Assembly: GCF_025960875.1 (NCBI RefSeq)
Contig: NZ_JAODLR010000016.1
Span: forward strand, 1 to 64,000
Reading direction: 5' to 3'
DNA: 64,000 nt
Source of the DNA: Crystallibacter permensis
GTDB taxonomy: Bacteria; Actinomycetota; Actinomycetes; Actinomycetales; Micrococcaceae
Position numbers and translations under genes: made by a program. The notes beneath the pieces were generated by a model. That model had not been told where the DNA came from, ran no database searches, and was given only the letters and a program-made list of their open reading frames with translations. Every line of letters starts with the position of its first letter. Within the stretch, counting starts at the first letter, position 1. Below, one piece after another: positions 2,039 through 29,562 of the stretch.

Positions 2039-2142
2039 ATGAATCACATCAGCTCGATGCTCGGAACCTATCCGAAGGACATGGGAGGTGTGGACCGGGA
2101 GAGGCCTGCCTGCTGCGCGGACCTGGTCGCCGCCCTGGCCTG
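2039..2142 (+). pseudogene. Truncated four-helix copper-storage protein (DUF326-like) remnant
   Basis: An ATG after a good ribosome binding site (GGAGCAGGACC) begins a reading frame starting MNHISSMLGTYPKD, then GGVDRE, and stopping after 34 residues. From memory, this start resembles the N-terminus of actinobacterial four-helix-bundle copper-binding proteins (DUF326/Csp type), which continue with Cys-rich helices. Here the similarity ends right after the VDRE motif and the sequence runs straight into the nuoA-like gene. It therefore looks like the 5' end of a copper-storage gene whose body was deleted when the operon was joined to it. Its promoter and leader may now serve the downstream operon. 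The short length makes the identification tentative. Confidence 0.5.
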
Positions 2143-2165
2143 AGCGTCGAGCCCCTGACCGCCCC

Positions 2166-2510
2166 GTGTACTCCGGAATCGTGGCCATGGCCCTGATGGC
2201 GGTGCTCGCCGTCGTCTTCCTTTTTACGTTTCACCGCCTCACCGCTGTCGATACCAGCCCGTTGGAGGTTCTGCCCGCCCAGTCCGGGTGGATGCCGCAG
2301 GAGCACGCTTTGTCCCGGTTCCATGTGCGCTGGTACCTGGCCTCGATCGTTTTCCTCGCCTTCGACATCGAGATGCTCTTCATGTACCCCTGGGCCGTGA
2401 TCGTGATCGAAAGAGGGATGTCCGCCGTAGTGGAGATGTTCCTGTTCCTCGGCGCCCTGCTTGTGGGCGTGGTCTGGGCCTGGAGGGAGGGAGCCTTCCG
2501 ATGGGCCTGA
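2166..2510 (+). CDS. nuoA: NuoA-like complex I membrane subunit
   Basis: A small membrane subunit of about 114 residues with three predicted transmembrane helices, matching NuoA of NADH:quinone oxidoreductase. The central motif RWYLASIVFLAFDIEMLFMYPW is the NuoA hallmark (F-D-x-E in the loop region). The frame stays open upstream to 2088, but the hydrophobic N-terminus begins at VYSGIVAMAL, so I use the GTG at 2166; the ATG at 2187 is an alternative and no strong ribosome binding site settles it. The stop overlaps the start of the next gene by 10 bases, suggesting translational coupling. It is the first gene of an eight-gene operon. Confidence 0.85.
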   Translation: MYSGIVAMALMAVLAVVFLFTFHRLTAVDTSPLEVLPAQSGWMPQEHALSRFHVRWYLASIVFLAFDIEMLFMYPWAVIVIERGMSAVVEMFLFLGALLVGVVWAWREGAFRWA

Positions 2511-3901
2511 CCGAGACCCTCGCCCGCCTTGCCGTGCGCGCTACCCGGATCCTCGTTGTGGAGGCCCCGGGGCAGTGGCAGACACGGGTGGAGCTCGAGC
2601 AGCAGATGCTGCGCCTAGGATGGCGCCCGGCGTGGACGCCAGGAGACGCGGACGTGCTTGCTGTGTGCGGGGCGCCCGGTCCCGAACTGGCCCAACTGGT
2701 GGAACGCCTCTGGGAACAGATGCCCGGACCACGCGTACGCGCCGCCGTCACCTCGCCCACAGCCGTTACCCCAGCCCTCAACGACGCCGCAGCCCTCCTT
2801 CTTGACACCCCCGCACACAGGACCGATGCCCAGGAGCGGGCACAAAAACCTCAGATCCCCGCAGTCATGGACCATGGCGGCCACGGTGAAATGGGTCATC
2901 ACGGCATCGACCACAGCGGCATGAACCATGGCGGGCACGACGGAATGGACCACACCAGTCATGGGGGCATGGACCAGGGCCAGCCGGGCGACGAAGACCA
3001 CCGCACCATGAAGCACGAAGACCATCACGGCACGGACCACAGCAGCATGAACCATGGCGGGCACGACGGCATGGACCACGGCAGCCATAGGGGGATGGAC
3101 CACGGGGACACGGACCAGGGCCAGCCAGGCGACGAAGACCATCACGGCATGAACCACAGCGGCATGAACCATGGCGGACACGGCGAGATGGACCACAGCA
3201 GCCACGGGGGTATGGACATGGCCCCGGAAGGTATACCGCTGGCCCAAGGCGGGGAGGACCGCGACGGTTTGGGGGTGGATGTGCTGCATCTGCCCTTGGG
3301 CCCGGTGCTGCCGTTCTGGCCGGCTGGCCTGGTCCTGCATTGTTCGTTGCAGGGCGATGTGGTGGTTGCTGCTGACGCGGCGGTGGTAGACGGCGGAAGC
3401 CACGCGGACGGCATCCACAGCCGGCATTCCGGCTTGGTGCCGGCTGCGGCAGTGCGGTGTGACAACCTCGTGGCGCTGCTGACACTGATCGGCACGCAGG
3501 ACCTCGCCGCCCGTGCCCGGTCGGCCAGAGACGCGTTGTTGCACGGTGACCCTGGCGGCGCCCGAGGCGCCGTGGAGCGGTTGCACCGGGTTGTGCGCCG
3601 ATCCATCTTTGTGCGCTGGTCCCTGCGCGGGGTTCTGCCGCTCGCACCGGCCGATCTGGAACGCCACGGTTTGCCGGACCGCTGCCTCGGGGATGCCTAC
3701 GACAGGGTGTTGTCACTGGTGGAGCGGGTCCGGGCCGAGGTGAACGGCGCAAATCCAGGGGCACCGGTTGGCGCTGAAAGAGTGCCGTGGGGCATGGTGC
3801 CGCACCTGGTGACCGGGCTGGAGATAGGGACGGTGCGTCTGGCGGTTGCGAGCCTGGACCTTGACCCGTTCCCGGCCGTCCACGAGGTGGGACATGCCTG
3901 A
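2501..3901 (+). CDS. NuoB/NuoD-like fusion with Met/His-rich linker
   Basis: This 466-residue protein sits where nuoB, nuoC and nuoD normally lie. Residues 1-115 resemble NuoB in layout (ADVLAVCGAPGPELAQL, then LWEQMPGPRV) but lack the cysteines that hold cluster N2. Residues about 123-240 are a low-complexity linker with roughly 14 Met and 26 His in units such as MNHGGHDGMDH, divided by two DQGQPGDEDH spacers. The rest resembles a NuoD core: LGPVLPFWPAGLVLHCSLQG sits where NuoD has its GPQHP(A/S)THG region, but the quinone-site histidines are not conserved. The start ATG follows GGAGGGAG and overlaps nuoA; the stop overlaps nuoH by 8 bases. I infer a structural adaptor that closes the membrane arm without redox clusters, with a copper-binding linker. 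The B and D assignments rest on position and weak motif similarity. Confidence 0.6.
   Translation: MGLTETLARLAVRATRILVVEAPGQWQTRVELEQQMLRLGWRPAWTPGDADVLAVCGAPGPELAQLVERLWEQMPGPRVRAAVTSPTAVTPALNDAAALLLDTPAHRTDAQERAQKPQIPAVMDHGGHGEMGHHGIDHSGMNHGGHDGMDHTSHGGMDQGQPGDEDHRTMKHEDHHGTDHSSMNHGGHDGMDHGSHRGMDHGDTDQGQPGDEDHHGMNHSGMNHGGHGEMDHSSHGGMDMAPEGIPLAQGGEDRDGLGVDVLHLPLGPVLPFWPAGLVLHCSLQGDVVVAADAAVVDGGSHADGIHSRHSGLVPAAAVRCDNLVALLTLIGTQDLAARARSARDALLHGDPGGARGAVERLHRVVRRSIFVRWSLRGVLPLAPADLERHGLPDRCLGDAYDRVLSLVERVRAEVNGANPGAPVGAERVPWGMVPHLVTGLEIGTVRLAVASLDLDPFPAVHEVGHA
2867..3222 (+). repeat. Met/His-rich repeat region inside the NuoB/D-like gene
   Basis: The DNA encoding the linker is a degenerate tandem array. 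Short units (ATGAACCATGGCGGGCACGA and variants) are nested in a longer period marked by GACCAGGGCCAGCC at about 2971 and 3114. The pattern suggests growth by slippage or unequal recombination, as is common in metal-binding low-complexity regions. It also produces long open frames on the opposite strand, which are not genes. Confidence 0.85.
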
Positions 3902-4844
3902 AAACATGCCTGAGACACTGCTGACGACTGTTCCCGCCGGTTGGGCGGTACTCGCAGGCATGATTTTGTGCGCCCTGGCCTTCTTCGCGGCCGCTCTGGA
4001 CTCTGCCCTGTCCGCCCGAGCCGAGGGCGCCGGTCGCGGAGGATGGCTGGCACCTGCGTGGTCAACGGCGCGGTTGCTGCGGCAGCGGCGGCGTACCGTC
4101 GTGGCCGCGGACACTTTGTTGCTGCGGGTCGGGGCAGCCGGAATGTTGGGCGGGTCGTTCCTGATGGTCGCGGTGATCCCGTTCGGCCGGTGGACACTGG
4201 CAGACCTGGACGTTGGTGTCGTGTGGTTCAACACGGTTGATGTCATGGTGTGGGCGTTGGTGTGGTTGGCGGGGTGGGGGGCGAACTCGGTCCATGGTCT
4301 GGTCGGCGGTTACCGGTTCCTGGCCCACGGGTTGGCGTATGAGCTGCCGTTGATGTTCGCGCTGGTGGCTCCGGCGATCGCGGCCGGCAGTCTCAGGGTA
4401 AGCGATGTGGCCGGCGCCCAGGACCGGCTGTGGTTCGCGGTGTGGATGCCGGTAGCGTTCGTCATCTTCCTGGTTGGAGTAACCGGGTTCTCAGTATGGG
4501 GGCCTTTCGCCGCGGCCCTCGGCGCGGATGTCGCCGGCGGTGTGCTGGCCGAACTGTCCGGGGTCGACCGCCTGGTTCTGCAGGCTGGGCGCTACGCCTT
4601 CCTGGCGGCCGGGGCCGCGTTTTCGGTGCCGCTGTTTTTGGGCGGGGGCGCCGGGCCGTTCCTGCCGGAGTGGGCGTGGGTGGTGGTGAAGACGGTCGCG
4701 GTTCTGGCGGTACTGGTGTGGCTGCGGCGGAAGCTGCCGGTGTTCCGCCCGGACCGGTTTCTGGAGATCGGGTGGGTGGTGCTGCTCCCGGCGGCCGTGG
4801 CCCAGGATCTCGTGGTATCTCTCGTCGTCGTGTGGAAGGGATGA
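3894..4844 (+). CDS. nuoH: NuoH-like complex I membrane subunit
   Basis: A 316-residue membrane protein with about eight helices, matching NuoH (subunit 1), which forms the quinone chamber and joins the peripheral and membrane arms. Recognisable pieces are GWGANSVHGLVGGYRFLAHG followed by YELPLMFALVAPAIAAGSL (the usual GWxSNSxYxLLGxxR...SYExP region) and the C-terminal VWLRRKLPVFRPDRFLEIGW. The normal PFDLPEAESELVAG loop, which faces the NuoB/NuoD interface, is replaced by an altered ELSGVDRLVLQAGRYA stretch. That fits a non-standard partner. The ATG follows GAGGTGG and overlaps the fusion gene. Confidence 0.85.
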   Translation: MPENMPETLLTTVPAGWAVLAGMILCALAFFAAALDSALSARAEGAGRGGWLAPAWSTARLLRQRRRTVVAADTLLLRVGAAGMLGGSFLMVAVIPFGRWTLADLDVGVVWFNTVDVMVWALVWLAGWGANSVHGLVGGYRFLAHGLAYELPLMFALVAPAIAAGSLRVSDVAGAQDRLWFAVWMPVAFVIFLVGVTGFSVWGPFAAALGADVAGGVLAELSGVDRLVLQAGRYAFLAAGAAFSVPLFLGGGAGPFLPEWAWVVVKTVAVLAVLVWLRRKLPVFRPDRFLEIGWVVLLPAAVAQDLVVSLVVVWKG

Positions 4845-4847
4845 GCC

Positions 4848-5411
4848 GTGGTGGCTGCAATCGTGTTTTGGGGACTGGCCGTAGTGGCCGTGGCCGCCGG
4901 GGTGGCGGTCTTCGTGGTGGATTCCATGGCCCGGGCCACTTACGCCCTGGCGCTGTCGTTCATTGCCGTCGGGGCTCTGATCATCCTGCTGCAGCAGAGT
5001 TATCTGGGGGTCATCACGATCCTGATGATGGTGATGGAGATGGCGGTGATGGCCGTCTACATGGTGATGTTCATGGGCATGAACCCTGCGCTGATGCCCA
5101 TGGACATGACCCACGGCAAGAAAACGGCGATCGGTGCTTCCGCCGGTGTCTTCGTCCTGCTCGCTTCCGGTGCGCTGCTGATCCCTTGGCCTGAACGCCG
5201 CGGGGTTCCGGCAGAGGACATCACGAACGCGCTGGGACTCGAGATCATGGGCGAAAAGATGCTGGTGATGGCGGTGGTGGGCCCGGTCATGGTGGCGACC
5301 ATCGTGTCCGGAGTGGTCCTCGCCGCCGGCCGGACCCGCTACGACCGTCTGGGCGATGACCTGCGCCGCCGCCCGGCGGATGACCCTCAGCCCGGAGGTG
5401 TGGGCCGATGA
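4848..5411 (+). CDS. nuoJ: NuoJ-like complex I membrane subunit
   Basis: A 187-residue subunit with five predicted helices, matching NuoJ. The start is a GTG four bases after the nuoH stop. Family marks are FVVDSMARATYALALSFIAVG followed by a membrane segment rich in acidic and Met residues around MVMEMAVMAVYMVMFMGM. Its 3' end overlaps nuoK by four bases (ATGA). NuoJ helps couple the quinone site to the antiporter-like subunits. The high Met content near residues 60-85 is notable, though hydrophobic helices often favour Met. Confidence 0.9.
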   Translation: MVAAIVFWGLAVVAVAAGVAVFVVDSMARATYALALSFIAVGALIILLQQSYLGVITILMMVMEMAVMAVYMVMFMGMNPALMPMDMTHGKKTAIGASAGVFVLLASGALLIPWPERRGVPAEDITNALGLEIMGEKMLVMAVVGPVMVATIVSGVVLAAGRTRYDRLGDDLRRRPADDPQPGGVGR

Positions 5412-5710
5412 GCCTGGAGGTTGTTTTGCTCGTCGCCGCCGCACTGTTTGCGGTGGGGCTCTACGGGGCCCTCTCGCAGCAGGTGGTGGTGATGGTGATG
5501 ATGGGCCTGGAGCTGATGGTCAACGGGGTGCTGCTGGCCGCCGCCGGATTTTGGTGGTTCATGGCCCCGGCCCCCTCCGGGCAGGTACTGCTGCTGGTGG
5601 TGCTGGCGGCGATGACCGTGGAGATGGCCATGGGTTTTGCCGTGGCCACGCTGCTGCATCGGCGGCGGCAGACGGACATGACCGACATGGCCGAGGACCT
5701 GTCCCGGTGA
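5408..5710 (+). CDS. nuoK: NuoK-like complex I membrane subunit
   Basis: A 100-residue subunit with three transmembrane helices, the normal size for NuoK. The GLELMVNGVLL motif holds the conserved membrane glutamate, and a second acidic residue lies in AAMTVEMAMGFAV, both part of the proton path. The start overlaps nuoJ and the stop overlaps the nuoL start (GTGA), as in tightly coupled nuo operons. Confidence 0.92.
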   Translation: MSLEVVLLVAAALFAVGLYGALSQQVVVMVMMGLELMVNGVLLAAAGFWWFMAPAPSGQVLLLVVLAAMTVEMAMGFAVATLLHRRRQTDMTDMAEDLSR

Positions 5711-7620
5711 CGGCGGTCCAGGCCGCGCTGCTGACACTTGTGCTGTTGCCCGCCGCCGTGGGCGTACTGCTGGCTCTGGTCCGAGGCACCGAACGAGTGG
5801 CCACACCGGTCGCCGTCGTAACCGCCGGGCTCACGACGGCCATGGCGTTCGTTGTTGCCCTGGCCCGGCCAAGCCTGGTGCTCCCGTTCATGGTCGGGGC
5901 CGACTTCTCGCTGGCGGTTGACGCCCTGGCGGCACTGGTCGTGCCGGCGGTCGCCGCGGTGACTTTCCTCGTGTTGGTCTTTGCGGCCGGGAACATCCGG
6001 GAGTCACGGAGCCGGTTCCACGGGCTGATGCTGATCTTCTCGGCGGCGGCTTTGGCCACCGCGACGGCAGCCAGCATCCCGGCGCTGTTGTTCGCGTGGG
6101 AGCTGATGGGTGCGACTTCCTACGCCCTGATCGGGTTCTGGTGGCGTAACACCGATCGGGTCGCGGCCGGGCTGACGGCCTTTGTCACTACGCGTACCGC
6201 CGACCTCGGCCTGTACGTGGCCGCCGGCGCCGCCCTGGCCGGTGGGGCCGGGATGGCCTTGGCCGACCTGCCGGCAGCTACGGATCCGTGGCGCCATGTC
6301 ATCACCGCCGGGATCCTGGTCGCCGCACTGGGCAAGGCGGCCCAGCTGCCTTTCTCGTTCTGGCTCTCCGGTGCGATGAAGGGCCCGAGTCCGGTGAGTG
6401 CCCTGTTGCATTCGGCGGCAATGGTGGCCATGGGCGGGTATCTGCTGCTGCGGGTGGAGCCGTTGCTGGCCTCCACCGGCTGGGCCGGTCCCTTGGCGGC
6501 GTGGATCGGGGTGGTCACGGCGGTCCTGATGGGGGTTGTGGCGCTGGCCCAGCGGGAGCTCAAGCAGCTGCTGGCCGCGTCCACGGTCGCCCAGATGGGC
6601 TTCGTGGTCCTTGCGGCCGGTGTGGGCGCGGTCAGCGGCGGTGCTGCCCACCTGGTTGCCCATGCCTCGACCAAAGCCCTGTTGTTCCTAGCGGCCGGTG
6701 CGTGGCTGACGGCACTGGGTACCGGGGAGCTGGCCGGGCTGCGTGGCGTGGGACGCCGGTGGCGGGTCGTCGGCGTGGCCGCAACCCTGGGGGCGCTTGC
6801 CCTGGCCGGGATTGCCCCGCTGTCGTTGTGGGCCACCAAGGACGCCGTACTCGCCGCCGCACTCGGGGCCTCCCCATGGCTCTACGCTGCCGGTCTCGTG
6901 GCCGCGGCGTTGTCCGCGGCCTATGCAGGGAAGGCCCTGTGGACGATCTGGCGTCGCGGGCAACGCGAGGAAGCGGAGGAGGGCGGCACCGGCGAAGTGG
7001 GGGCACTGGAGCGGACCCCGCTGGTCGTGCTCGCCGCCGGAGCCGCGGTGCTGGGCGTGCTCGCCCTGCCGCCTATCAGCGGCACGCTCGCCGGGGCCCT
7101 CGGCGGACACGGAGAGGTCGCGTTGACCGAGTTGCTGGTCTCGGCGGGAATCGCCCTCGTGGTGCTGCTGGCCATGTTCCGGTGGCGTGCCCCGGAGCCC
7201 GGATGGGCCCGGCAGTGGCTGAGGCTGGAGCACACCGCCCACGCCGTTGTCGTCCGCCCTGCACTGGCCCTCGCCAGAGCGCTGGCCCGCTTCGACGACC
7301 GAGTCCTCGACCGTGCCGCCCTGGCTGCTGCCAGGGCCGTGGCCGTGGCAGCCCGTGCGGTTGCCCGCTTCGATGACCGGGTCCTCGACGCCGGGGTCGA
7401 GGCCTCGGCGGCCACCGCCGATGCAACCGGCCGGGGCGCTGCACGTCTCGATGACGCGAGGGTGGACGGCGCTGTCGAGGGCCTCGCCGGCCGGGTTCGC
7501 CGGTTGGGCGAGATCGCCCGGGCACCGCAGACCGGGGCGGTCCACCAGTACCTTCTCCAGGCCGTCGCGGTTCTCGCCGTTGGGGTCCTCGCCTGGTTCG
7601 TCTACGCCGTGATGGGATGA
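5707..7620 (+). CDS. nuoL: NuoL-like antiporter subunit
   Basis: A 637-residue Mrp-antiporter-like subunit, the distal proton pump of complex I. The GTG at 5707 overlaps the nuoK stop and is followed directly by the hydrophobic N-terminus; the frame is open further upstream but would run through nuoK. Key marks are FAWELMGATSYALIGFW (helix 5 glutamate), AALGKAAQLPFSFWL (helix 7 lysine) and MKGPSPVSALLHSAAMV. The C-terminal 130 residues form a charged amphipathic stretch in which RFDDRVLD occurs twice, followed by RLDDARVD, before a final helix. This is presumably the lateral helix and anchor running along the membrane arm. Confidence 0.92.
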   Translation: MTAVQAALLTLVLLPAAVGVLLALVRGTERVATPVAVVTAGLTTAMAFVVALARPSLVLPFMVGADFSLAVDALAALVVPAVAAVTFLVLVFAAGNIRESRSRFHGLMLIFSAAALATATAASIPALLFAWELMGATSYALIGFWWRNTDRVAAGLTAFVTTRTADLGLYVAAGAALAGGAGMALADLPAATDPWRHVITAGILVAALGKAAQLPFSFWLSGAMKGPSPVSALLHSAAMVAMGGYLLLRVEPLLASTGWAGPLAAWIGVVTAVLMGVVALAQRELKQLLAASTVAQMGFVVLAAGVGAVSGGAAHLVAHASTKALLFLAAGAWLTALGTGELAGLRGVGRRWRVVGVAATLGALALAGIAPLSLWATKDAVLAAALGASPWLYAAGLVAAALSAAYAGKALWTIWRRGQREEAEEGGTGEVGALERTPLVVLAAGAAVLGVLALPPISGTLAGALGGHGEVALTELLVSAGIALVVLLAMFRWRAPEPGWARQWLRLEHTAHAVVVRPALALARALARFDDRVLDRAALAAARAVAVAARAVARFDDRVLDAGVEASAATADATGRGAARLDDARVDGAVEGLAGRVRRLGEIARAPQTGAVHQYLLQAVAVLAVGVLAWFVYAVMG

Positions 7621-9113
7621 GCATGCTGAGTCTGATCGTCTTCCTGCCCCTGGCCGTCGCCGCCGTCCTGGCTGCGGCGCCCGCAATCGGTCCCACCGCC
7701 GGAAGGTGGATCTGGGTATCCGTGTGCGCCGCGGAACTGGTGCTCGTGGGGATCGTGTGGGCAGGCTACGAGGATCCGGGACCGAACGGGTTGGCGTTCG
7801 AGGAGCAGGTGCCGTGGATCCCCGGGGTCAACAGCAGTTATCACGTGGGCGTGGACGGCCTCTCCCTGCCGTTACTGGCCATGACGGCCGTCGTGTTCCT
7901 GGCCTGCTCGGTCTACGCCCTGCGGGACACCGACCGGACCCGGGTGCAGGCCGCCCTGTTCCTTTTCCTGCAGGGGGTGAGTCTGGGTGTGTTCGTGGCG
8001 GCCGACCTCATCCTGTTCTTCGTCTTCTTCGACCTCTCCATCGTGGGCATGTACTTCGTGATTGCCGGGTGGGGCCACGGCAATGCGGCCCGGTCGGCGC
8101 TGAAATTCTTCCTTTACACATTCCTGGGCTCCCTGGCCCTGCTGCTGGGCTTCATCGGGCTCTATGTGGCCGCCGAACCGCATACCTTCGACATTCCCGA
8201 GCTTGTCGCCGCGGCCCCGCTTGAGGGCAGCGCACTTACCGGGGGGCTGGTGCTGGCTGCCATCTTGGTGGGTCTGGCGGTGAAGACCCCCACCGTCCCG
8301 TTCCATACCTGGCTCCCCCCGGCGCACACCGACGCCCCGGCTATCGGCTCGGCTGTGCTGGCGGGTGTGCTGCTGAAGATGGGAACCTACGGGTTCGTGC
8401 GTATCGCCATGCCTATGCTGCCTGATGCATGGCGGGCGTGGGCCTGGGTGATCGTGGTGATCGGCATTATCTCAGTGCTCTACGGAGCGTTCGTGGCCTT
8501 GGCCCAGACCGATCTCAAACGGATGATTGCGTATACTTCGGTGAACCACATGGGCTACATTGTCCTGGCACTGGGCGCGGTCGGGCTGATCGCCGAGAAC
8601 GCCGCCCAGGCCCGTTCCGTGGCGGTCACCGGCGCGATGGTACAAATGGTCAGCCACGGGCTGATCACCGCCGCATTGTTCCTGCTGGCCGGGGTGATGC
8701 AGGACCGGTCCGGCACCTACGATATGGGCTCCTACGGAGGCCTCGCCGCCCCGGCGCCCCGGTACGCGGCGCTGTTCGCGGTCGGCGCCTTCGCGTCCCT
8801 GGGCCTGCCCGGCTTCTCCGGGTTCATCGCCGAGTTCCAGGTCTTCGCCGGCAGCATCGCCCTCGCCCCCGTGACCGCGGTCGCACTGCTGGGCATCCTG
8901 GTCACCGCCGCCCTGTTCCTGCGGGCTCTGCAGAGGGTCTTTACCGGGCCCGCGGAGGGCCGCTCCCCCGGGTTCGCCGATCTGCGTCCCCGGGAACTTT
9001 GGTCGGTCGGGCCGCTGCTGGGCCTGTCCCTGCTCATCGGTGTGCTGCCCCGGTTCCTGCTCGAGGTGATCGAGCCGGCCGCCTCCGCCCTCGCTACCCT
9101 GGTCAGGAGCTAG
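7617..9113 (+). CDS. nuoM: NuoM-like antiporter subunit
   Basis: A 498-residue antiporter-like subunit with about 14 helices, normal for NuoM. Marks include FFVFFDLSIVGMYFVIAGWG, KTPTVPFHTWLPPAHTDAP with the key helix 7 lysine, and LKRMIAYTSVNHMGYIVL. The ATG overlaps the nuoL stop (ATGA). It should form the middle proton channel between NuoL and NuoN. Confidence 0.93.
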   Translation: MSMLSLIVFLPLAVAAVLAAAPAIGPTAGRWIWVSVCAAELVLVGIVWAGYEDPGPNGLAFEEQVPWIPGVNSSYHVGVDGLSLPLLAMTAVVFLACSVYALRDTDRTRVQAALFLFLQGVSLGVFVAADLILFFVFFDLSIVGMYFVIAGWGHGNAARSALKFFLYTFLGSLALLLGFIGLYVAAEPHTFDIPELVAAAPLEGSALTGGLVLAAILVGLAVKTPTVPFHTWLPPAHTDAPAIGSAVLAGVLLKMGTYGFVRIAMPMLPDAWRAWAWVIVVIGIISVLYGAFVALAQTDLKRMIAYTSVNHMGYIVLALGAVGLIAENAAQARSVAVTGAMVQMVSHGLITAALFLLAGVMQDRSGTYDMGSYGGLAAPAPRYAALFAVGAFASLGLPGFSGFIAEFQVFAGSIALAPVTAVALLGILVTAALFLRALQRVFTGPAEGRSPGFADLRPRELWSVGPLLGLSLLIGVLPRFLLEVIEPAASALATLVRS

Positions 9114-9116
9114 CCG

Positions 9117-10550
9117 ATGGAGGCATCGATGCGGATGCTGCCCGCGCTGCTGCTGCCCGAGATCATCGTCTTCATTGGAGCCCTCGCGGTGCTGCTGGGC
9201 GGGTCGTTTATGCCGCGCCGGCGCCAGTGGATCGCCCGCATCATGGCCGCCCTGGCCCTGCTGGGTGCCACGGCGGCCGCTATCTTCGCCATGGTGGAGC
9301 CGGCGCAGACCGCCTTCAGCGGCACTTTCGCCGTTGACACCGCCACCGGCATGGCCCGCATCGTCACCGCCGTGGCTACCCTGCTGGTGCTTGGAGTGGC
9401 CTCCGGGGAAATCGCCGCCTCGCCTCGGGAATCCGACACCTACGCGCTGCTGCTGTTCGCCGCCACCGGGGTGATGGTCCTGGCCGGGGCCACGGACCTG
9501 CTGGTGCTCATTGCCGGGTTCCTGCTGGCCAGCATCCCCCTGTACGGGATCGTAGGTTTGGCCGGTGGCTGGTCCGGGGCAGAGGCTGCACTGAAGACTT
9601 ACCTCATGGGTGCACTGTCGGGGATCCTGCTCATGCTCGGGGTCACCGTACTCTATGCCCTGGCTGGCGGCACGGATTACGCACTGCTCGGGGAGACTCT
9701 ACCCGACGCTCCTAACGCGGCGGTGGGGGCCGGTGTATTGGGCGTGCTGGCCGGGCTGCTCTTTAAAGCCGGCGGGGTGCCCTTCCACTTCTGGGTGCCT
9801 GACGCATCCCAGGGCACCGGGGGCGCCGCCGCCACTTTCCTCACCACGGTTCCGAAGGTGGGGGCGCTGGTGGCGGTGTACCGGCTCGTGGATACGGTCT
9901 CCACCGGTGAGGACACTTTGTTGTTCGTCGCGGCGATACTGGCTACGGCGTCGATGTTCCTGGGCAACCTCGCCGCCTACTGGCAGACTGACCCCCGCCG
10001 GCTGCTTGGCTGGTCAACCGTTGCCCAGGTCGGATTCCTGCTGGTACCTGTGGCGGCGGCCGGGCGCAGCGGCCTGGCCCTGCCCTCACTGCTGTTCTAT
10101 CTGGCCGCTTATGCCGTCACCAATGTCGCCGCCTTCGCAGTCACCGCCGCATTGCCCCAGCACCGCGAGCTGGTGGCCTACCGGGGCCTTGTCCGGGCCC
10201 GTCCGGGGCTGGCGCTGGCCCTGCTCGTCGCGCTGCTGGGCCTGGTGGGCACCCCGCCGCTGGCGGTCTTCGTCGGAAAACTCACCACCGCCACCGCCGC
10301 CTGGGACGGCGGGCACGGCTGGCTGGCCCTGGCAGTGATGCTCAACAGTTTGCTCAGCCTCTTCTACTACCTGCGCTGGTTTGCCCCCGTCTTCGCCCAC
10401 CCGCGCCAAGGTGCCATGGGGTTCCCAAAACCGGGCGGGGCCGCCGCCTGGCCTGGGGCCACTGCGGGTATCGCCGCGGCCGCGAGCCTGGCACTTGGCC
10501 TCCTTGCCGGGCCCCTGTGGGCGGCCCTCGAAGGTCCCCTGGCCATGTAG
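9117..10550 (+). CDS. nuoN: NuoN-like antiporter subunit
   Basis: A 477-residue antiporter-like subunit matching NuoN, starting at an ATG three bases after the nuoM stop. Typical segments are GLLFKAGGVPFHFWVPDA (conserved lysine and the VPFHxWxPD signature), RRLLGWSTVAQVGFLL and GLVGTPPLAVFVGKL. It ends the operon: a strong hairpin follows at 10713. No nuoE, F, G, I or separate C gene is present anywhere in the window. Confidence 0.93.
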   Translation: MEASMRMLPALLLPEIIVFIGALAVLLGGSFMPRRRQWIARIMAALALLGATAAAIFAMVEPAQTAFSGTFAVDTATGMARIVTAVATLLVLGVASGEIAASPRESDTYALLLFAATGVMVLAGATDLLVLIAGFLLASIPLYGIVGLAGGWSGAEAALKTYLMGALSGILLMLGVTVLYALAGGTDYALLGETLPDAPNAAVGAGVLGVLAGLLFKAGGVPFHFWVPDASQGTGGAAATFLTTVPKVGALVAVYRLVDTVSTGEDTLLFVAAILATASMFLGNLAAYWQTDPRRLLGWSTVAQVGFLLVPVAAAGRSGLALPSLLFYLAAYAVTNVAAFAVTAALPQHRELVAYRGLVRARPGLALALLVALLGLVGTPPLAVFVGKLTTATAAWDGGHGWLALAVMLNSLLSLFYYLRWFAPVFAHPRQGAMGFPKPGGAAAWPGATAGIAAAASLALGLLAGPLWAALEGPLAM

Positions 10551-12500: not shown

Positions 12501-13115
12501 CTAGGGCAAGCTCAGCGCAGATGAAGCGCCCTGGCAGTTCCTGAACGCACTCACCTCGTACTCCGGTACCGGTCGGTTTTCAGCCTCGGCGGCGCTTTCC
12601 GCCGGCCCATTCTCCGCAATGTCGTTGACGAGCCATTCCATCTCGCTGATTTCCCGCCGTTGGGCATCGCTGATGGCAACAGCCAGCTCGCACACCCGGT
12701 AGTCCTCGATCCCGGCCCGTTCCGACCGCAGGATCGCCATGGAGTGGTGGGGGATCATGGAGTTCATGAACGCGGTGTCGTCGATGGTCGCCTGGCTGCG
12801 ATCGAGGCTGATGGAGGCTGCGAGTACGAGCAAAGCCGCCCCCACGATGGCTATGTTCATCTTCCGGTTCCGACACATGTTCAACATCCAGCCGAGCATG
12901 ACCAGGGCCATCACGCCGCCCATCGTGATCGCCATGTACATCCGGCTCTCGCTCCACCGCAAGTGGTCCAGTGCGTAGGTGTCGATGAACATCAGTCCGT
13001 ACATTACGACGGTGGCGGTGGCGATCATCGCGCCGAAACGCCAATAGCTCATCTTCATCCCTCCTCCTTTGCCCTGCTCGTGGCTTGCCTGGTTCTTGTC
13101 GGTATCTGACTTCAT
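12501..13115 (-). CDS. DUF305 membrane protein, probable copper-associated
   Basis: A 204-residue protein with a short hydrophilic N-terminus, three predicted transmembrane helices (about residues 25-110) and a C-terminal DUF305 domain with the motif MNSMIPHHSMAILRSERA. DUF305 proteins are ferritin-like helical proteins often linked to copper resistance; the HH pair and Met residues are candidate metal ligands. I use the ATG at 13115, behind AGAGGA. An internal ATG at 13058 behind AAAGGAGGAGGG gives a 185-residue form beginning MKMSYWRFG, and is nearly as likely. It probably forms its own transcript. Confidence 0.8.
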   Translation of the reverse strand: MKSDTDKNQASHEQGKGGGMKMSYWRFGAMIATATVVMYGLMFIDTYALDHLRWSESRMYMAITMGGVMALVMLGWMLNMCRNRKMNIAIVGAALLVLAASISLDRSQATIDDTAFMNSMIPHHSMAILRSERAGIEDYRVCELAVAISDAQRREISEMEWLVNDIAENGPAESAAEAENRPVPEYEVSAFRNCQGASSALSLP

Positions 13116-13662: not shown

Positions 13663-14586
13663 CTAGGTTCCGGCCGGCAGCCTGTTGTCCCGCCAGACGG
13701 CTTCTTCGCGGGCGACTCCGCCCACCGCCGGGAAGAACGGGTAAAACCGCCTGACTTCCTGCGCGAAATCCTCCAGATCTCTCTCCCCGGACGAAACAAT
13801 CTTTGAGCGCCAGCGGGAATGTTCCACCAGTGCCAGCGCAGCGAACACAATAAAGCGGCCCACAGCCACCGTCGGACGCAGCAGATTGATCAGCTCCACA
13901 GCTGCGACCTTGGCAGGGAGCAGCTCGCCGTCGAGGTCCCTGTGTCCTCCGATCTGGGATGCCGGGCATCCCAGAGGCGTCTTCACCGTGCCCGAACGAA
14001 TCCGGTCGACCAGCTCTGTGACCCATTTTTCTGTTCGGTTCCGGCGCAGCTGAGCCCACCAGTCGCCGGGGCCCAGAGAGGCTGCTTTATCGATCATGCG
14101 GCTGAGTTCGCGGGCCAGGGTCTCGGCGCCGCGGCCGGTAACCGGCACACCCGCCCATTGACAGACTGCCCGGGTGAGAATGAGCCGCACCTCATCATGC
14201 AGGACCACCGGTTCCTGCCACTTTTTGGCCCGGTCCTGCCAGACGCCCTCGAAAGTGTCCCTGAGACGACCGACGGAGTCTTCGGACATGAGATCCATAA
14301 ACATGGCCTTGCGGTGGCGGTGGTCCCCGCCATCGAGCATCTGGACGCTGCCCTTGTCCTGAAGCAGACGAAGAGTGTTCGGGGGCAACGCGCCCCGTCG
14401 TGTAAACAACCCGCTCGTATACAGCAGAGCCGCCGCCTCTGCTGCGCGCATGCAGATAACCTGGTGCGCTGCTATCCGGGTCCGGAAGGCATCAGTGCCG
14501 AGCCTGTCGCAGCGGGAGGAGATGAAACCATAGCCTTCACGGAGAAAAGGAATCGAACTGTCAAGCGTCGCAACGGTTGGAATCAT
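13663..14586 (-). pseudogene. Truncated CYP152-type cytochrome P450 (fatty-acid peroxygenase)
   Basis: The 307 readable residues match the N-terminal three quarters of bacterial CYP152/CypC P450s, which hydroxylate or decarboxylate fatty acids with hydrogen peroxide. Seen here are the early IPFLREGYGFI, the substrate-helix region with LLRPTVAVGRFIVFAALAL, the ExxR-containing FAQEVRRFYPFFPAVGGVARE, and WRDNRLPAGT just before the stop. Family members run to about 415-430 residues and end with the heme-binding Cys loop. No frame after 13663 restores that loop, so the protein cannot bind heme normally. The intact start (ATG behind GAGGG) suggests recent decay. Confidence 0.8.
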
Positions 14587-15041
14587 GGTGCCCTCGTTTT
14601 CCTTGGGATCCGGGTGCCGAAGGGTACCGGCAAGTGCCGCCGTAGTGCGTCCCCCATATCGTCGCCACGGTCAGTGGCAGAGTCAAGGACACGCCCGAAG
14701 CAACTCCTACTGGCCACCCCTTTGCCGCAGGACCGCCACTACATAGCGGAGCATTTTCTCGCCGTGTCCGCTGCAACAATAATCGCCCTGGCTGCCAACG
14801 CCTGCTGTCGGATAGGCGGGCGGACTACCGCAACGGCAACGATGACCGGAACATCGCCTCTCACAGCCGGCGCCACGACGCGAACGGACGAACTGCGCCC
14901 CGCCCAGCTCAATGTCACATAAGGTCTGGTACGTTTGAAAAACGTAGAATAAGCAACGGATAAAGTGACACTTTTGCCACTGTTTGTCAGTCCGAAATCC
15001 AGCGTCACCTAAACGGCCGTTTAAATGATGGAGGCAGCCAG
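14587..15041. promoter_or_regulatory. Probable resolution/recombination (res) site region
   Basis: The 455 bases before the resolvase gene hold no supported gene. The last 110 contain several dyads of the kind resolvases bind: TACGTTT/AAACGTA at 14930-14946, TGACA/TGTCA at 14966-14989, and the 14-bp palindrome TAAACGGCCGTTTA at 15010-15023, which lies just before the resolvase start. By analogy with Tn3-family elements this could be the res site and the resolvase promoter. Confidence 0.45.
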
Positions 15042-15656
15042 ATGCTGGTCGGTTACATGCGGGTTTCAAAAACCGATGGATCACAGACTACTGATCTGCA
15101 GAGGGATGCCCTGCTGGCCTCCGGCGTCGACTCCGGCCAGCTGTATGAAGACAAGGCATCCGGCAAACGCGAGGACCGGCCGCAGCTGGCCGCCTGCCTC
15201 AAAGCGCTCCGGAACGGTGACACCCTGGTGGTATGGAAACTGGACCGTCTGGGCCGTGACTTACGCCACCTGGTCAACGTCGTCCACGACCTTACCCAAC
15301 GCGGCATAGGACTCAAAGTCCTGACCGGACAGGGCGACGCCATCGACACCACCACCGCCTCGGGGAAACTCGTGTTCGGGATCTTCGCCGCGCTGGCCGA
15401 GTTCGAACGCGAACTCATCTCAGAACGCACCCTCGCCGGCCTCGCGTCGGCGCGTGCTCGCGGACGAAAAGGCGGAAGGCCCTTCAAAATGACGCCCGCG
15501 AAAGTCCGACTGGCCATGTCATCCATGGGACAGCCCGACACCAAAGTCGCAGACCTCTGCGACGAGCTGGGGATTACACGGCAGACCCTGTACCGGCACG
15601 TCTCGCCCGCAGGGGAACTGAGGCCAGACGGAGCCAAACTGCTCGCGAAGAAATAG
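15042..15656 (+). CDS. Serine recombinase, resolvase/invertase family
   Basis: A 204-residue small serine recombinase. The catalytic domain starts with GYMRVSKTDGSQTTDLQRDAL (the nucleophilic Ser is in RVS) and includes VVWKLDRLGRDLRHL and FAALAEFERELISERT. A C-terminal helix-turn-helix is seen in TKVADLCDELGITRQTLYRH. Such enzymes resolve cointegrates of Tn3-type transposons or invert DNA segments. The ATG follows GGAGG. No matching transposase lies in the window, so this is either a stand-alone plasmid resolvase or what remains of a transposon. Confidence 0.93.
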   Translation: MLVGYMRVSKTDGSQTTDLQRDALLASGVDSGQLYEDKASGKREDRPQLAACLKALRNGDTLVVWKLDRLGRDLRHLVNVVHDLTQRGIGLKVLTGQGDAIDTTTASGKLVFGIFAALAEFERELISERTLAGLASARARGRKGGRPFKMTPAKVRLAMSSMGQPDTKVADLCDELGITRQTLYRHVSPAGELRPDGAKLLAKK

Positions 15657-23148: not shown

Positions 23149-25926
23149 TCAGCGGCCGGCTCCGGAAGCCTTCACCTGGGCCGGCACCGGTACCGTTCCG
23201 GCGTCGCCGGGTTCTTCGGCCGGTTCCGGGGCGAAGCGGTGCAGCCGGCTGGCGTTGACAACAACGCTGATGCTTGAAACGGCCATGGCGGCGGCAGCGA
23301 TCATGGGCGAGAGCAGGGCTCCGGTGGCCGGGTAGAGCAGTCCCGCGGCGATCGGGATGGCGGCGGTGTTGTAGCCGAAGGCGAGGAAGAGGTTCTGCCG
23401 GATGTTGCGCATGGTGGCCTTGGACAGGGCGACCGCCGTGACCAAGGCCTGCAGGTCCCCCGACATCAGGGTGATGTCTGCGGCTTCGATGGCAACGTCG
23501 GTGCCGGTGCCGATGGCGATGCCGACGTCGGCCTGGGCCAGTGCGGGTGCATCGTTGATGCCGTCGCCGACCATGGCCACCAGTTTGCCCTGGTCCTGCA
23601 GGGTGCGGATTTCCGCTGCCTTGTGTTCGGGCAGGACGTCTGCCAGGACCCGGTCAATGCCTACCTGGCCGGCGACGGCACGGGCGGTGGCGGCGTTGTC
23701 CCCGGTGATCATGACGACCTCGACGCCGAGCCGCTGGAGGGCGGCCACCGCGGCGCGGGAGCTGGGTTTGAGCGTATCGGCGACCGCCACCAGGCCGGCC
23801 GCCTGCCCGTCCACGGCAACATACATGGGGGTTTTGCCCTCCTCCGAGAGCCGGGCGGCCTGCTCGCCGAACTGCCCGGTTTCGATGGCCGCGTCGGAGA
23901 GCAGGCGGATGTTGCCGATCAGCACCTCCCGGCCGTCGACGCTGGCCCTCACTCCCTTGCCGGTGACGGAGTCGAAGGCGCTCACGGGTGAGAGCCGCAG
24001 CCCTTTTTCCTGCGCGTTCCGGACGATGGCCGCGGCCAGCGGGTGTTCGCTGTCGGCTTCTGCCGAAGCGACGAGACGCAGCAGTTCGTCCGGGTCCTGG
24101 CCCGCAGCCGGAACCAGATCGGTCAGGGACGGCTCGCCCCTGGTGATCGTGCCCGTCTTATCCAGCACCACGGTGTCGGCTTTGTGAGCGGATTCAAGCG
24201 CTTCGGCGCTCTTGACCAGCACGCCCATGGAGGCCCCCTTACCGGTGGCAACCATGATCGACAGAGGCGTGGCCAGGCCCAGCGCACACGGGCAGGCGAT
24301 GATCAGGACGCTCACCGCCGCGACCACGGCCAGGGTCAGGGCCGGGCCGACGACAAACCAGACGACGAAGGCGATGACGGCTATGAAGACGACCGCGGGC
24401 ACAAAGTACCCGGCAACGGTATCGACGAGGCGCTGGATGGGTGCCTTCGAACTCTGGGCTTCCTGGACGAGCTTGATGATCTGCGCCAGGGCGGTCTCGG
24501 CACCGACACGGGTAGCGCGCATGGTGAATGCCCCGGTCGTGTTCACTGTGGCCCCGGTGACCGGGTCGCCGGCGCCTTTGCTGACCGGGACGCTTTCGCC
24601 GGTGATCATTGATTCATCTATGGTTGACCGTCCCTCGATGATTTCCCCGTCGACGGGAATCTTCTCCCCCGGGCGTACACGGATTTTGTCGCCGGCCTGC
24701 ACTTCGTTGGCGTCGACTTCGACTTCCTGGCCGTCCCTGAGCACCCTGGCGGTGGCCGGGGTCAGGGCCAGGAGCGCGCGGATGGCCTCGCCCGTGCCGG
24801 AACGTGCGCGGGCTTCAACCAGGCGGCCCAGCAGGATGACCGTCACGATGAAACTGACGACCTCGTAGTAGACCTCACGGACCTCTTCGGGAAACACCCC
24901 GGGGAAGAAGGTCACTGCCAGGCTGTATCCGAAAGCGGCCGCGGTCCCCAGGGCGATAAGACTGTTCATTTCCGCCGAGCGGTTGGCCAGGGCGCGCCAG
25001 CCGATGCGGTGGATCGGCCAGCCGACGATGAACATCACCGGCAGGGTCAGCACCAGCTGCGTGTACGGGTTTTCCAGGAAATCCGGGACATACCGGCTTC
25101 CGATGAAGTGTGAAACCATGGCCGCGTAGAGCACCGGAACCGTCAACACGGTTCCGAGCGCCACGCGCCATTTAAGGTCCCGCACCTCCTGGTGCTGGGC
25201 CTCCGCTTCGGCTTCCTCGGTCGGTTCGCTCCCCGGGTCCGGGCGCAGGCGGGCGGGGAAGCCGGTAACGTCGGCGACGGCTTTTTCGAGCTCGCCGGTA
25301 CCCGCGCGCTCCGGGTCGTACACCAGCACGGCACGTTCGGCGCCGAAATTGATCTCCGCTGATTCGACCCCGTCGATACGCTGCAGCCGGGATTCGGCTT
25401 TCACGGTGTCGATCAGCATGCTACGCAGCGCGCCGGGGAGCATGAACTCGGCGCGTTCACGGGGCCGGTTCGCCTCCAGCCGGGGTCCGACGCCGACGGC
25501 GCGGGCGGTTTCGGCTTCTTCCTCCCGACCGGTATCGGCCGGTGTGCTTCCGGCAGGTTCGGCGACCAGGCGGCCGTGCAGCATGTTCATCCCGCACGCC
25601 CAGGGATACTCTCCGGGCTCGTCAATGACCAGGTCAACCGTCGTGGTGCCGAACGCCGCCAGCGATGCGCTTTTGCGCAGATCGGGAAAAACGACCCGGC
25701 TGGTGCAGTCACTGTTGTCCTGCCGGTTGAACCGCAGCCTGACCGGGGTACCTGCCGTAACATGCACCAGATCCGGTGTATATCCGCCGCGCACCGCAAT
25801 GTCGACCGTCTGGACGCCGCCGGAAACCTCGGCGCGCGTCGCTTTCCGGGGCCGGAAAAAGTACCAGGCGAGGAAACCTATCAAAGCGATACCGGCGGCA
25901 ATGACGGCTAAATCGAGCGTATCCAT
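23149..25926 (-). CDS. Cupredoxin-fused copper-exporting P1B-type ATPase
   Basis: A 925-residue P1B-ATPase with an unusual front end. It starts with a membrane helix ([19 protein letters not shown]), then a cupredoxin-like domain at about residues 35-125 with candidate ligands in [11 protein letters not shown] and [14 protein letters not shown] (Cys, Met, His), then an HMA-like fold without the CxxC motif. The ATPase core is standard: the TGES actuator motif, the copper motif CPC in [12 protein letters not shown], the DKTGT phosphorylation site, SEHPL and GDGINDAP. The ATG at 25926 follows GGAG with eight-base spacing. The cupredoxin domain probably accepts or delivers copper on the outer face. 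Operator copy 5 lies upstream. Confidence 0.93.
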
Positions 25927-26006
25927 TTCTGCTTCTCCATCCGCAGTGCGCCCGCCCTGTTCGGCCTGCCGCTGCTGCTGTTGTCCGCGAAACACCTTTA
26001 ACTAGC

Positions 26007-27978: not shown

Positions 27979-29562
27979 ATGAATGAGTTCGAAAACAACG
28001 TTCAGCATAACGACGACGGCGGGGCCCTCCTGGGCGAGGACGCGCCGGTGAGCCGCTGGAGCTTTGTGAAATACGGGGCTGCCGCGGGGCTTGGCGCGCT
28101 GGCACTGGCCGGCGCGCAGCCGGCCCATGCGCGGACCGCGACGCCGACCGAAGAGGCTGAGGCGCCCGAGCCCACCGATCTAGCGACGGGTGTTGCGACC
28201 GGCGTGGCGACCGAAGAGGCTGAGGGCCTGGAGCCGACCGACAAGGCGACCGATGAGGCTGAGGACCTGGAGCCCACTGACGAGGCGACTGATGAAGCGG
28301 CAGCTGCTGACGCAAAGCTGCTGGAATCGGACCGGGAAGTGCTGGATGTCTACATCAACGAGGGCTACCTCAAGATGGTGGATGACTCGCTGGTCTACTT
28401 CCGCGGGTTCGGCGACCGCCCCACGGAGAAGAACGACGCGAATCCCAGCCTTACCATCAAGCCCAAGGTCTTCCTGAAGGACGATACCTGGGTGGACAGC
28501 CGGATCTACCCGGTAGGGGCGCCGGAACCTCCCCGTGGGACGCCGACGCCGCTGCAGCCGGATCCCGATAATCCCGGCCAGTACTTCGTCCGCAGGGCCT
28601 ACTGGGGCAGCTTCCTGCCGGAGCGGGTGATCGTGGCCGAAACAGGCAGCAAGATCAAGCTGCGCGTGCACAACCGGCTGGCCAAGGATCACGAGCTGGC
28701 CATCCACAAGGCCGGCGACGACGGCGAAGACGTCAGCACGGGCAAAATCGCACCAGGCGCGGTAGGAACGCTGGAACTGAAAGCGCCGGAACCCGGGGTC
28801 TACATTTACAGCGATCCGGGCAACCAGCCGGTGGAACGGACCTTGGGCCTATACGGCGCGCTGGTTGTCATGGACCCGTCGGACGCCTGGTGCATCTCGC
28901 CGGACGGCGCCGAGTTCGAACGCCAGTGGGTCTGGCTCTGCCACGCCGTCGATCCTGTGTGGGCCAATATCGAGGCCAAGGGCGGCACCGTGGACCCGGC
29001 CCGGCAAAAGGCCGTACCGCGCTACTTCACGCTCAACGGCCGCAGCGGCTACGAGTCCATGGGCATGACCCGGGATACGGCGTTGAACCTGGCCTCCGAT
29101 GAGGAGACCACCATCTCGGGGTACCCGCGGCAGTTCGACGCCCGGGAGTTCGCCGAGGGCTCGGCCATCGGCTCACTGCGCGGCGGGCAGCTGGTACGCA
29201 TCGTCAACTGCGGGATTGTCTACCACCAGATGCACTTCCACGGCAACCATCTGTGGACCGTGCGCTGCAATAACGAGGACTGGGGCCGCACCGAGGGCTA
29301 CGTGGATGAGAACGGCTACGTCTGCATCCAGCAGTGGGAGGACGTCATCAAGGTCAGGGGGATGGAGATCAAAGAGGCCATCATCCCAATCAAGCGGCCG
29401 CCGGACGCGGTCGACGAGGTTTGGGACAACAGGAAAACCGACTGGGCGTACCCCATGCACTGCCACTCCGAATCCTCCCAAACCGCTGCCGGTGGCATGT
29501 ACCCGGGTGGCCTGACCTCTCACTGGATCCTTAAAGCGCCTACGGATGGAGCGTCATCATAA
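27979..29562 (+). CDS. Multicopper oxidase-like exported protein
   Basis: A 527-residue cupredoxin-type protein. The N-terminus has a Tat-like hydrophobic segment (SRWSFVKYGAAAGLGALALA) in which the twin arginine reads SRW, followed by an acidic repeat of TEEAE and EPTDEATDEA units (residues about 55-115). The oxidase part includes YHQMHFHGNHLW (HxHxHG-type copper motif) and PMHCHSESSQTAAGGMYPGG near the C-terminus. In classic enzymes the last motif is HCHxxxHxxxGM; here the third His is replaced by Ser, so the type 1 site may be altered or rely on other residues. A copper-oxidase role in Cu(I) detoxification fits the context. The ATG lies seven bases behind GGAG. Confidence 0.82.
   Translation: MNEFENNVQHNDDGGALLGEDAPVSRWSFVKYGAAAGLGALALAGAQPAHARTATPTEEAEAPEPTDLATGVATGVATEEAEGLEPTDKATDEAEDLEPTDEATDEAAAADAKLLESDREVLDVYINEGYLKMVDDSLVYFRGFGDRPTEKNDANPSLTIKPKVFLKDDTWVDSRIYPVGAPEPPRGTPTPLQPDPDNPGQYFVRRAYWGSFLPERVIVAETGSKIKLRVHNRLAKDHELAIHKAGDDGEDVSTGKIAPGAVGTLELKAPEPGVYIYSDPGNQPVERTLGLYGALVVMDPSDAWCISPDGAEFERQWVWLCHAVDPVWANIEAKGGTVDPARQKAVPRYFTLNGRSGYESMGMTRDTALNLASDEETTISGYPRQFDAREFAEGSAIGSLRGGQLVRIVNCGIVYHQMHFHGNHLWTVRCNNEDWGRTEGYVDENGYVCIQQWEDVIKVRGMEIKEAIIPIKRPPDAVDEVWDNRKTDWAYPMHCHSESSQTAAGGMYPGGLTSHWILKAPTDGASS

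Follow-up and report, generated by a model that had tools for sequence, protein, structure and literature searches.

A complex I-derived operon of Crystallibacter permensis with a methionine ladder and a His/Met-rich cap, and its possible role in copper transport

Organization of the operon

The DNA described here (the window) comprises the first 64,000 nucleotides of contig NZ_JAODLR010000016.1 of Crystallibacter permensis (assembly GCF_025960875.1), beginning at base 1 of this 110,995-base contig; the genome is 4.95 Mb in 66 contigs. At positions 2166–10550 of its plus strand lies an intact operon of eight genes, overlapping or a few bases apart, which encode counterparts of complex I subunits in the order A-BD-H-J-K-L-M-N, BD denoting a fusion of NuoB-like and NuoD-like parts. 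The operon product probably handles copper rather than respiring.

The NuoA-like subunit (2166–2510; PF00507, E 5.7e-23) is read from a GTG start and is followed by the 466-residue fusion protein (2501–3901), in which residues 1–115 are NuoB-like, residues from about 120 to 240 form a His/Met-rich linker, and those from about 241 to 466 are NuoD-like. Next come a NuoH-like subunit (3894 or 3906 to 4844; PF00146, E 2e-42), a NuoJ-like subunit bearing a methionine ladder, Met60–Met87 with His89 (4848–5411; PF00499, E 1.3e-9), a methionine-enriched NuoK-like subunit that retains Glu35 and Glu72 (5408–5710; PF00420, E 8.5e-13), and the antiporter-type subunits NuoL (about 5701–7620), NuoM (7617–9113), and NuoN (9117–10550), all three matching PF00361 (E 1.6e-45, 3.1e-66, and 8.1e-48, respectively). 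All seven non-fused products exceed the Pfam cut-offs, and among the NCBIfam models only that of the NuoM subfamily does so. The coordinates and Pfam matches agree with an earlier note on this DNA, made from its letters alone, which had described counterparts of A, H, J, K, L, M, and N in tight overlap.

A pattern scan, with its hits confirmed by tblastn, yielded 339 related places, of which 80 were kept as loci of the same cassette (these and all other loci compared are cited below by L numbers). The eight-gene order, for which the earlier note had suggested a genome survey, is complete in 72 of the 80 loci, the remaining eight being truncated where a contig or locus ends.

Residues kept and lost in the membrane subunits

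The membrane subunits were compared at E. coli-numbered positions that we take to be functionally key (rows, window included: 79 for NuoH and for NuoJ, 80 for NuoK, 61 for NuoL, 60 for NuoM, and 74 for NuoN; shorter or badly started copies were dropped). NuoL keeps E144, D178, K229, H254, K305, H338, K342, and K399 in all 61 rows, having lost K169 (Thr in 51 rows) and, in 27 rows, H334 (to Gln). NuoM keeps K265, H322, H348, and E407 throughout and K234 in 59 of 60 rows, with Asp in place of Glu144 in every one. In NuoN, K247 is kept in 73 of 74 rows and K395 in all, and Lys217 is replaced by Glu in 20. The claim that every antiporter subunit retains its key lysine and glutamate motifs therefore holds for most of NuoL and fails at NuoL K169 and H334, NuoM Glu144, NuoN Lys217, and NuoN Glu133, discussed below. 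In NuoK, E36 and E72 are kept in 80/80 rows, R25 is Gln in 80/80 and R26 in 79/80. NuoH retains E228 and K274 in 79/79 rows; E216 is mostly Leu, E218 falls in a gap, E241 is Arg in 79/79, and E36 is Ala in 79/79, but the latter position is a gap in a second alignment that includes Pseudomonadota rows. Six such rows keep NuoH E228 and K274 and NuoN K217, K247, and K395, do not keep NuoH E157, and share the loss of NuoN E133.

The fused cap and the missing redox subunits

The position of NuoB and NuoD is occupied, as the earlier note had it, by a single protein of 466 residues devoid of the N2-cluster cysteines: its NuoB-like part has one cysteine, Cys56, and none of the CC, GACAS, and PGCPP motifs, which we take to be those of the N2 ligands. 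In the NuoD-like part the sequence LGPVLPFWPAG, aligned by eye, stands against GPxHPxxHG, presumably the quinone-site motif, so that both histidines of the pair are lost.

No Pfam model matched the window copy of the fusion above cut-off, either over its whole length or in the linker. Its N-terminus matched the NCBIfam NuoB model below cut-off (E 7.8e-4), and residues 43–83 aligned with canonical NuoB with an hhalign probability of 93%. A profile of nine fusions retrieved 40 matches with E ≤ 0.1 from the PDB (best 5.5e-7), all of them NuoB-type chains, 39 from complex I or NADH dehydrogenase-like (NDH) complexes and one, MbhJ (6cfw_J), from the membrane-bound hydrogenase (MBH). An AlphaFold2 model based on a 45-row alignment has pLDDT of at least 90 for most of both domains and a disordered linker. 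With the NuoD-like part, a fold search gave 19 PDB matches at E ≤ 0.001 (best 1.5e-4), all in complex I/NDH entries and assumed here to be the NuoD/49-kDa chain; hhalign against NuoD gave a probability of 0.3% in global mode and a weak local match (37%, E 3.5e-4, 52 columns). Among four fusions tested from Pseudomonadota, PF00346 (NuoD) was above the Pfam cut-off in three (E 8.2e-15, 3.5e-16, and 1e-7) and absent from L229. Structure prediction of the fusion alone and profile comparison, which are among the checks put forward in the earlier note, give a likeness to NuoB, and a likeness to NuoD that is weak in the window copy and above cut-off in relatives. For the C-terminal part as NuoD-like, firm support comes from the Pseudomonadota relatives, the fold and hhalign values of the window copy being weak when taken alone. 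That the fusion is unrelated to NuoB and NuoD was rejected on the PDB profile matches, the fold search, hhalign, and PF00346 in relatives.

The linker (2858–3220, plus strand) is rich in His, Met, and Asp; counted over 133 residues from residue 106 onwards, it has 27 His and 13 Met. The linkers of Actinomycetota mostly consist of a His/Met/Asp repeat that varies greatly in length. In two Pseudomonadota fusions, L235 and L236, the region between the NuoB-like part and PF00346 contains two and three HMBD domains (PF19335; E 2.6e-28 and 2.8e-44, respectively).

NuoC, E, F, G, and I and separate NuoB and NuoD were sought with E. coli queries (E ≤ 1e-4) in 99 sequences, namely the window and 98 loci, with plasmid loci L014, L017, and L020 left out. 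No NuoC, E, F, or I and no separate NuoB or NuoD matched in this set, and all seven queries were recovered in four of four canonical complex I loci used as a positive control. The lone match came from L232, where a gene some 5 kb beyond nuoN (14192–15535 of that locus) is distantly NuoG-like (20.8% identity) and perhaps encodes a molybdopterin oxidoreductase. The absence of nuoC, E, F, G, and I noted earlier for this DNA was in this way confirmed at the locus. Nor do nuoB, C, D, or I lie just beyond the operon, an explanation rejected because a gene for a YbdK-type carboxylate-amine ligase (710–1867, by NCBIfam) precedes it, the relatives have the same gene set, and canonical NuoD was not found in the source genome in a genome-wide search that covered NuoD and PF00361 and not E, F, G, and I. 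The same search located two more PF00361 genes, possibly of the Mrp type, on another contig.

The methionine ladder

NuoJ carries a series of methionines that the earlier note did not mention and that is newly recognized here. The window segment reads ITILMMVMEMAVMAVYMVMFMGMNPALMPMDMTH, and the corresponding canonical NuoJ of one host VVVYTGAVMMLFLFVLMLIGVDSA. Met60, 61, 63, 65, 68, 72, 74, 76, 78, 83, 85, and 87 and His89 are each conserved in at least 90% of the 79 cassette NuoJ sequences. Eleven of these 13 positions (all except Met63 and Met83), together with Glu64, are held in all eight Pseudomonadota NuoJ, and likewise in the window and six further actinobacterial-type rows, one of them from Lysobacter. 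The methionine fraction of cassette NuoJ (0.095, n = 78, minimum 0.086) does not overlap with that of canonical NuoJ (0.040, n = 30, maximum 0.050), the latter being the best-scoring NuoJ from each of 30 host genomes and only the aligned stretch being counted. For NuoK the values are 0.093 (n = 79) and 0.054 (n = 30), with overlapping ranges. A general genome or family trend towards methionine was rejected, since NuoH, L, M, and N of the cassette tend the opposite way, with less methionine on average than their counterparts from E. coli and L175. In NuoA, His53, Met70, and Met73 are invariant (75/75 cassette rows used and 8/8 Pseudomonadota rows) and differ from E. coli NuoA and three canonical NuoA rows.

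In a low-confidence model of NuoJ, helix 3 spans residues 51–75, with Met60–Met74 inside it and the rest of the ladder in the following loop; searched against the PDB, the model gave no match at E ≤ 0.001, the best (1.4e-3) being a cyanobacterial NDH chain. Lysines and arginines in this loop and in the C-terminus suggest that the Met/His loop faces the cytoplasm, as the fusion would. Conserved putative soft-metal ligands are strung along the membrane subunits and may mark a path for copper.

Copper genes around the cassettes

Copper-related families, among which we count DUF305, DUF1541, and Csp by assumption, flank 55 of the 80 loci and 2 of 40 control regions (Fisher p 3.9e-12; with a first, smaller choice of families 48/80 and 2/40, p 1.1e-9), p-values that serve as guides, the loci being related and at least two pairs single-strain. 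The controls come from 21 of 50 host genomes and were placed at round positions on long contigs, so that islands are under-sampled in them; their mean flank is 13 kb, and that of the loci about 10 kb. Where at least 10 kb of flank is available, a copper family is present at 46 of 57 loci. In Pseudomonadota such families occur at three of eight loci: multicopper oxidase, CopC, and a CsoR-type regulator at L229, CopC, CopD, and cupredoxin at L230, and multicopper oxidase and cupredoxin at L231.

Among 88 loci (the 80, the window, and seven plasmid loci) the commonest flank genes encode multicopper oxidases (24), DUF305 proteins (clusters of 22 and 15), and Csp (22), followed by P1B ATPases (17), CsoR-type regulators (14), and HMA proteins (14). 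The recurrence of multicopper oxidases nearby would suit a redox-driven proton pump with an additional partner, powered at the cap by Cu(I)/Cu(II) or thiol chemistry in place of N2 and quinone; for such a pump the NuoH-A-J-K-L-M-N set is entirely present. We regard it as improbable: the two quinone-site histidines of NuoD and several acidic residues on the quinone side of NuoH are lost, and the operon has no constant partner gene, its neighbours varying from locus to locus.

A gene for a PF07885 potassium-channel-like protein stands beside 13 of the 80 loci (for example L076, 18051–18971) and none of the 40 controls. Along with the metal-binding cap and the largely kept NuoL machinery, this agrees with a copper-gated channel or antiporter, in which copper bound to the cap and ladder would open or drive a flux of protons or K+ through NuoL, M, and N, and so regulate pH or the membrane potential during copper stress, and would not itself be carried. 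A sensor, however, would not need some 12 conserved methionines along one helix and loop, nor those of NuoK and NuoA, and we consider this model rather unlikely; the word 'channel', which the earlier note had used, is no better supported than a coupled transporter.

Directly before the operon of the window, a 34-codon open reading frame (2039–2143, plus strand) is what remains of a Csp-type copper-storage gene, its first ca. 24 residues matching Csp proteins with E down to 9.3e-10, in keeping with the remnant that the earlier note had reported there. Loci L021 and L025 carry the same short frame, whose end is there weakly Csp-like as well. The DNA preceding the remnant is nearly identical in these three related genomes, so that transcription of the operon may start from the former csp promoter. 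The remnant itself, kept in the three genomes, might act as a leader peptide.

The controlled neighbour counts, the HMBD domains of relatives, and the NuoJ ladder together make a link of the operon to copper, suggested in the earlier note from the linker and the Csp remnant, very likely; the association with copper islands, which that note had proposed to survey, is the 55/80 versus 2/40 given above.

Distribution, plasmids, and earlier descriptions

The loci are labelled Actinomycetota in 77 of 80 cases, Lysobacter in two, and Acidobacteria in one, a metagenome-assembled genome; the gene set is also found in two lineages of Pseudomonadota. The two Lysobacter loci, L044 and L045, have an actinobacterial-type cassette (59% identity in the C-terminal part of the fusion), pointing to transfer between phyla. 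In a NuoM tree with midpoint rooting, a branch with support of 98/95 sets the cassette rows (14 of actinobacterial type, 7 from Pseudomonadota) apart from 5 canonical ones, and two loci labelled formate hydrogenlyase (FHL)-like fall outside the cassette group on long branches. Loci L178, L179, and L180 have NuoD-like genes with no match to E. coli NuoB or membrane subunits (E ≤ 1e-3) within about 20 kb.

The cassette is accessory: at family level 23 of 197 sampled genomes carry it, at class level 26 of 394, and among Pseudomonadota 9 of 398, each sample counting the carrier used as its centre. In 50 host genomes searched, which span 50 of the 80 loci, canonical NuoD was found in 40 and not in the other 10, which are drafts; the cassette therefore neither replaces nor needs complex I.

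The fusion, whole or partial, is encoded on plasmids from nine actinobacterial genera, including soil and clinical isolates; 16 plasmid records match it, with 80% or more of its length covered in 6. Copper or heavy-metal genes are annotated nearby in 6 of the 10 plasmid regions viewed out of these 16 (L012, L013, L014, L015, L016, and L018), L017 being ambiguous. In the plasmids L014, L017, L019, and L020 the cassette is decayed, with frame breaks, an IS3 element within the fusion gene, or only nuoA and a partial fusion left. Such decay and the patchy spread would suit an old nuo fragment of unrelated function hitch-hiking on metal-resistance plasmids. To this we give little credence, the soft-metal features being intrinsic to the proteins and conserved over two phyla, and copies being present also on contigs that range in length from several hundred kb to several Mb.

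The operon is already in print. Three papers describe a partial NDH-1 or nuo operon in Salinispora, read as marine or osmotic adaptation (PMC3314556), a partial nuo operon in Kocuria flava S43, listed among adaptation genes with a proton role and with the copper genes copD counted separately in the same list (PMC6002675), and one in Streptomyces SM17 and SM18 (PMC6676996). The gene set and order of the last, as given there, are identical to those of the cassette, nuoA being followed by a hypothetical protein and then by nuoH and J to N; its carriers include strains from the rhizosphere and from copper-rich mine fluids, explained there by osmotic stress. Kocuria marina SO9-6 and K. polaris CD08-4, scored nuo=1 in PMC6002675, are our loci L032 and L054. 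In the portions of these papers open to us, the operon is a proton or sodium pump, the hypothetical protein is left without identity, and nuo is assigned no copper role; PMC11442307 deals with the ordinary nuo operon. No copper function of the operon was proposed in the openly available literature searched by titles and beginnings of abstracts, subscription papers and bioRxiv preprints being outside this search. New here are the proposed copper role and the methionine ladder.

In the published reading, the products form a pump for protons or sodium that serves adaptation to the sea or to osmotic stress; the basis is the occurrence of the nuoA, H, J, K, L, M, N set in actinomycetes that are marine or exposed to salt (PMC3314556, PMC6002675, PMC6676996). 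This reading seems to us very improbable: the 99 sequences searched yielded no source of redox energy, cassettes are carried on plasmids of soil and clinical isolates and lie beside copper genes, and salt explains neither the ladder nor the HMBD domains.

A possible proton-coupled copper transporter

We propose, at a probability of about 0.5, that the operon encodes a proton-coupled transporter of Cu(I) or Ag(I) derived from complex I. The proton half of complex I, that is NuoL, M, and N with the NuoH-A-J-K axis, is largely retained, and the electron half, with its flavin and iron-sulfur subunits, N2 cluster, and quinone-site histidines, is gone. What is left of NuoB and NuoD would form a fused docking cap, whose linker may collect a soft metal, most likely Cu(I) and possibly Ag(I). 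From there the metal would reach the Met/His loop of NuoJ on the cytoplasmic side and cross the membrane along the methionines of NuoJ helix 3, NuoK, and NuoA, and its passage would be coupled to proton movement via the antiporter subunits. Export from the cytoplasm would fit the resistance context best, and an outward direction is put forward tentatively.

The steps of this proposal, predicted from sequence, differ in strength. Transport of copper by the complex has about an even chance. More tentative, with the odds somewhat against it, is the specific form of a Cu(I)/H+ transporter made from the proton arm of complex I, in which the methionine ladder replaces part of the central water axis and the metal cap the electron-input module. 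Binding of copper by the ladder, the crossing of the membrane by the metal, its coupling to protons, and the direction are all inferred.

Several observations weigh against a copper transporter. NuoN lacks Glu133 of TM5 in 73 of 74 rows (Leu in 68), and as this subunit adjoins the J/K axis, coupling may be changed or incomplete. The NuoJ model has a mean pLDDT of 60, and the fold match of the NuoD-like part is remote (query TM-score about 0.3, root-mean-square deviation 8–13 Å). Linker slices of L090, L092, L096, and L101 contain no His, and the linker His content is not significantly related to copper neighbours (Mann–Whitney p 0.054 in 69 of the 80 loci, three without an intact fusion and eight failing the motif rules having been dropped). 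No copper family was seen at 11 of the 57 loci whose flanks reach 10 kb or more, nor in five of the eight Pseudomonadota regions, some on short contigs, and no copper or heavy-metal gene is annotated in three of the ten plasmid regions viewed (L011, L019, and L020). Finally, with many cassettes on metal-gene plasmids, part of the linkage could be due to hitch-hiking.

The putative transporter shares with complex I the subunits A, H, J, K, L, M, and N, a NuoB/NuoD-like cap, and most of the NuoL residues, and differs from it in the lack of N2 cysteines and of C, E, F, G, and I at the locus, the loss of the quinone site and of the NuoN glutamate, and the NuoJ ladder. The Mrp Na+/H+ antiporter, an mrpA–G set that lacks NuoA and NuoH, uses modules of the NuoL, M, N, K, and J type without redox reactions; unlike it, the cassette has NuoA, NuoH, the NuoB-NuoD fusion, and a separate Met-rich NuoJ. 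Ehr complexes, related to energy-converting hydrogenases, have degenerate NuoD and NuoB that have lost the catalytic metal ligands; compared by description only, they resemble the cassette in being complex I-like and in this loss, and we know of no metal-binding insertion or copper context in them. NuoD-type chains of the membrane-bound sulfur reductase (MBS) and FHL (6u8y_L and 7z0s_E) are among the fold matches of the fusion, and the NuoB-type chain of MBH (6cfw_J) among its sequence matches, and these three enzymes keep their Fe-S clusters and catalytic site. HMBD domains occur in copper-efflux proteins of the CusB/CopA type, which thus have PF19335 in common with the two Pseudomonadota fusion linkers; the membrane machine is different.

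If the proposal is right, the coupling machinery of complex I can be powered by a metal ion in place of electrons, and the cassette would offer a natural test of energy transfer from NuoH-A-J-K to NuoL, M, and N, a question central to bioenergetics and still open. Bacterial copper handling would gain a widespread and often plasmid-borne system, and a gene set classed in PMC3314556, PMC6002675, and PMC6676996 as marine or osmotic adaptation would be explained.

Other features of the window

Downstream of the operon, on the minus strand, lies the gene of a DUF305 membrane protein (12501–13115; PF03713, E 2e-8), a recurrent neighbour of the cassette whose flank cluster comprises 15 loci, the window included. 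A copper island follows, with a heavy-metal P1B-type ATPase bearing a fused N-terminal cupredoxin domain (23149–25995, minus strand; PF13473, E 4.2e-16) and a multicopper oxidase-like protein just above cut-off (27979–29562, plus strand; PF07732, E 3.2e-4). Two further heavy-metal P1B-type ATPases with HMA domains are encoded on the plus strand at 51868–54150 and 57465–59957. At 37014–41240, on the minus strand, is a gene whose 1408-residue product combines AMP-binding and carrier domains with weak hexapeptide ones and which we take to resemble those for enzymes of the epsilon-poly-lysine synthetase type.

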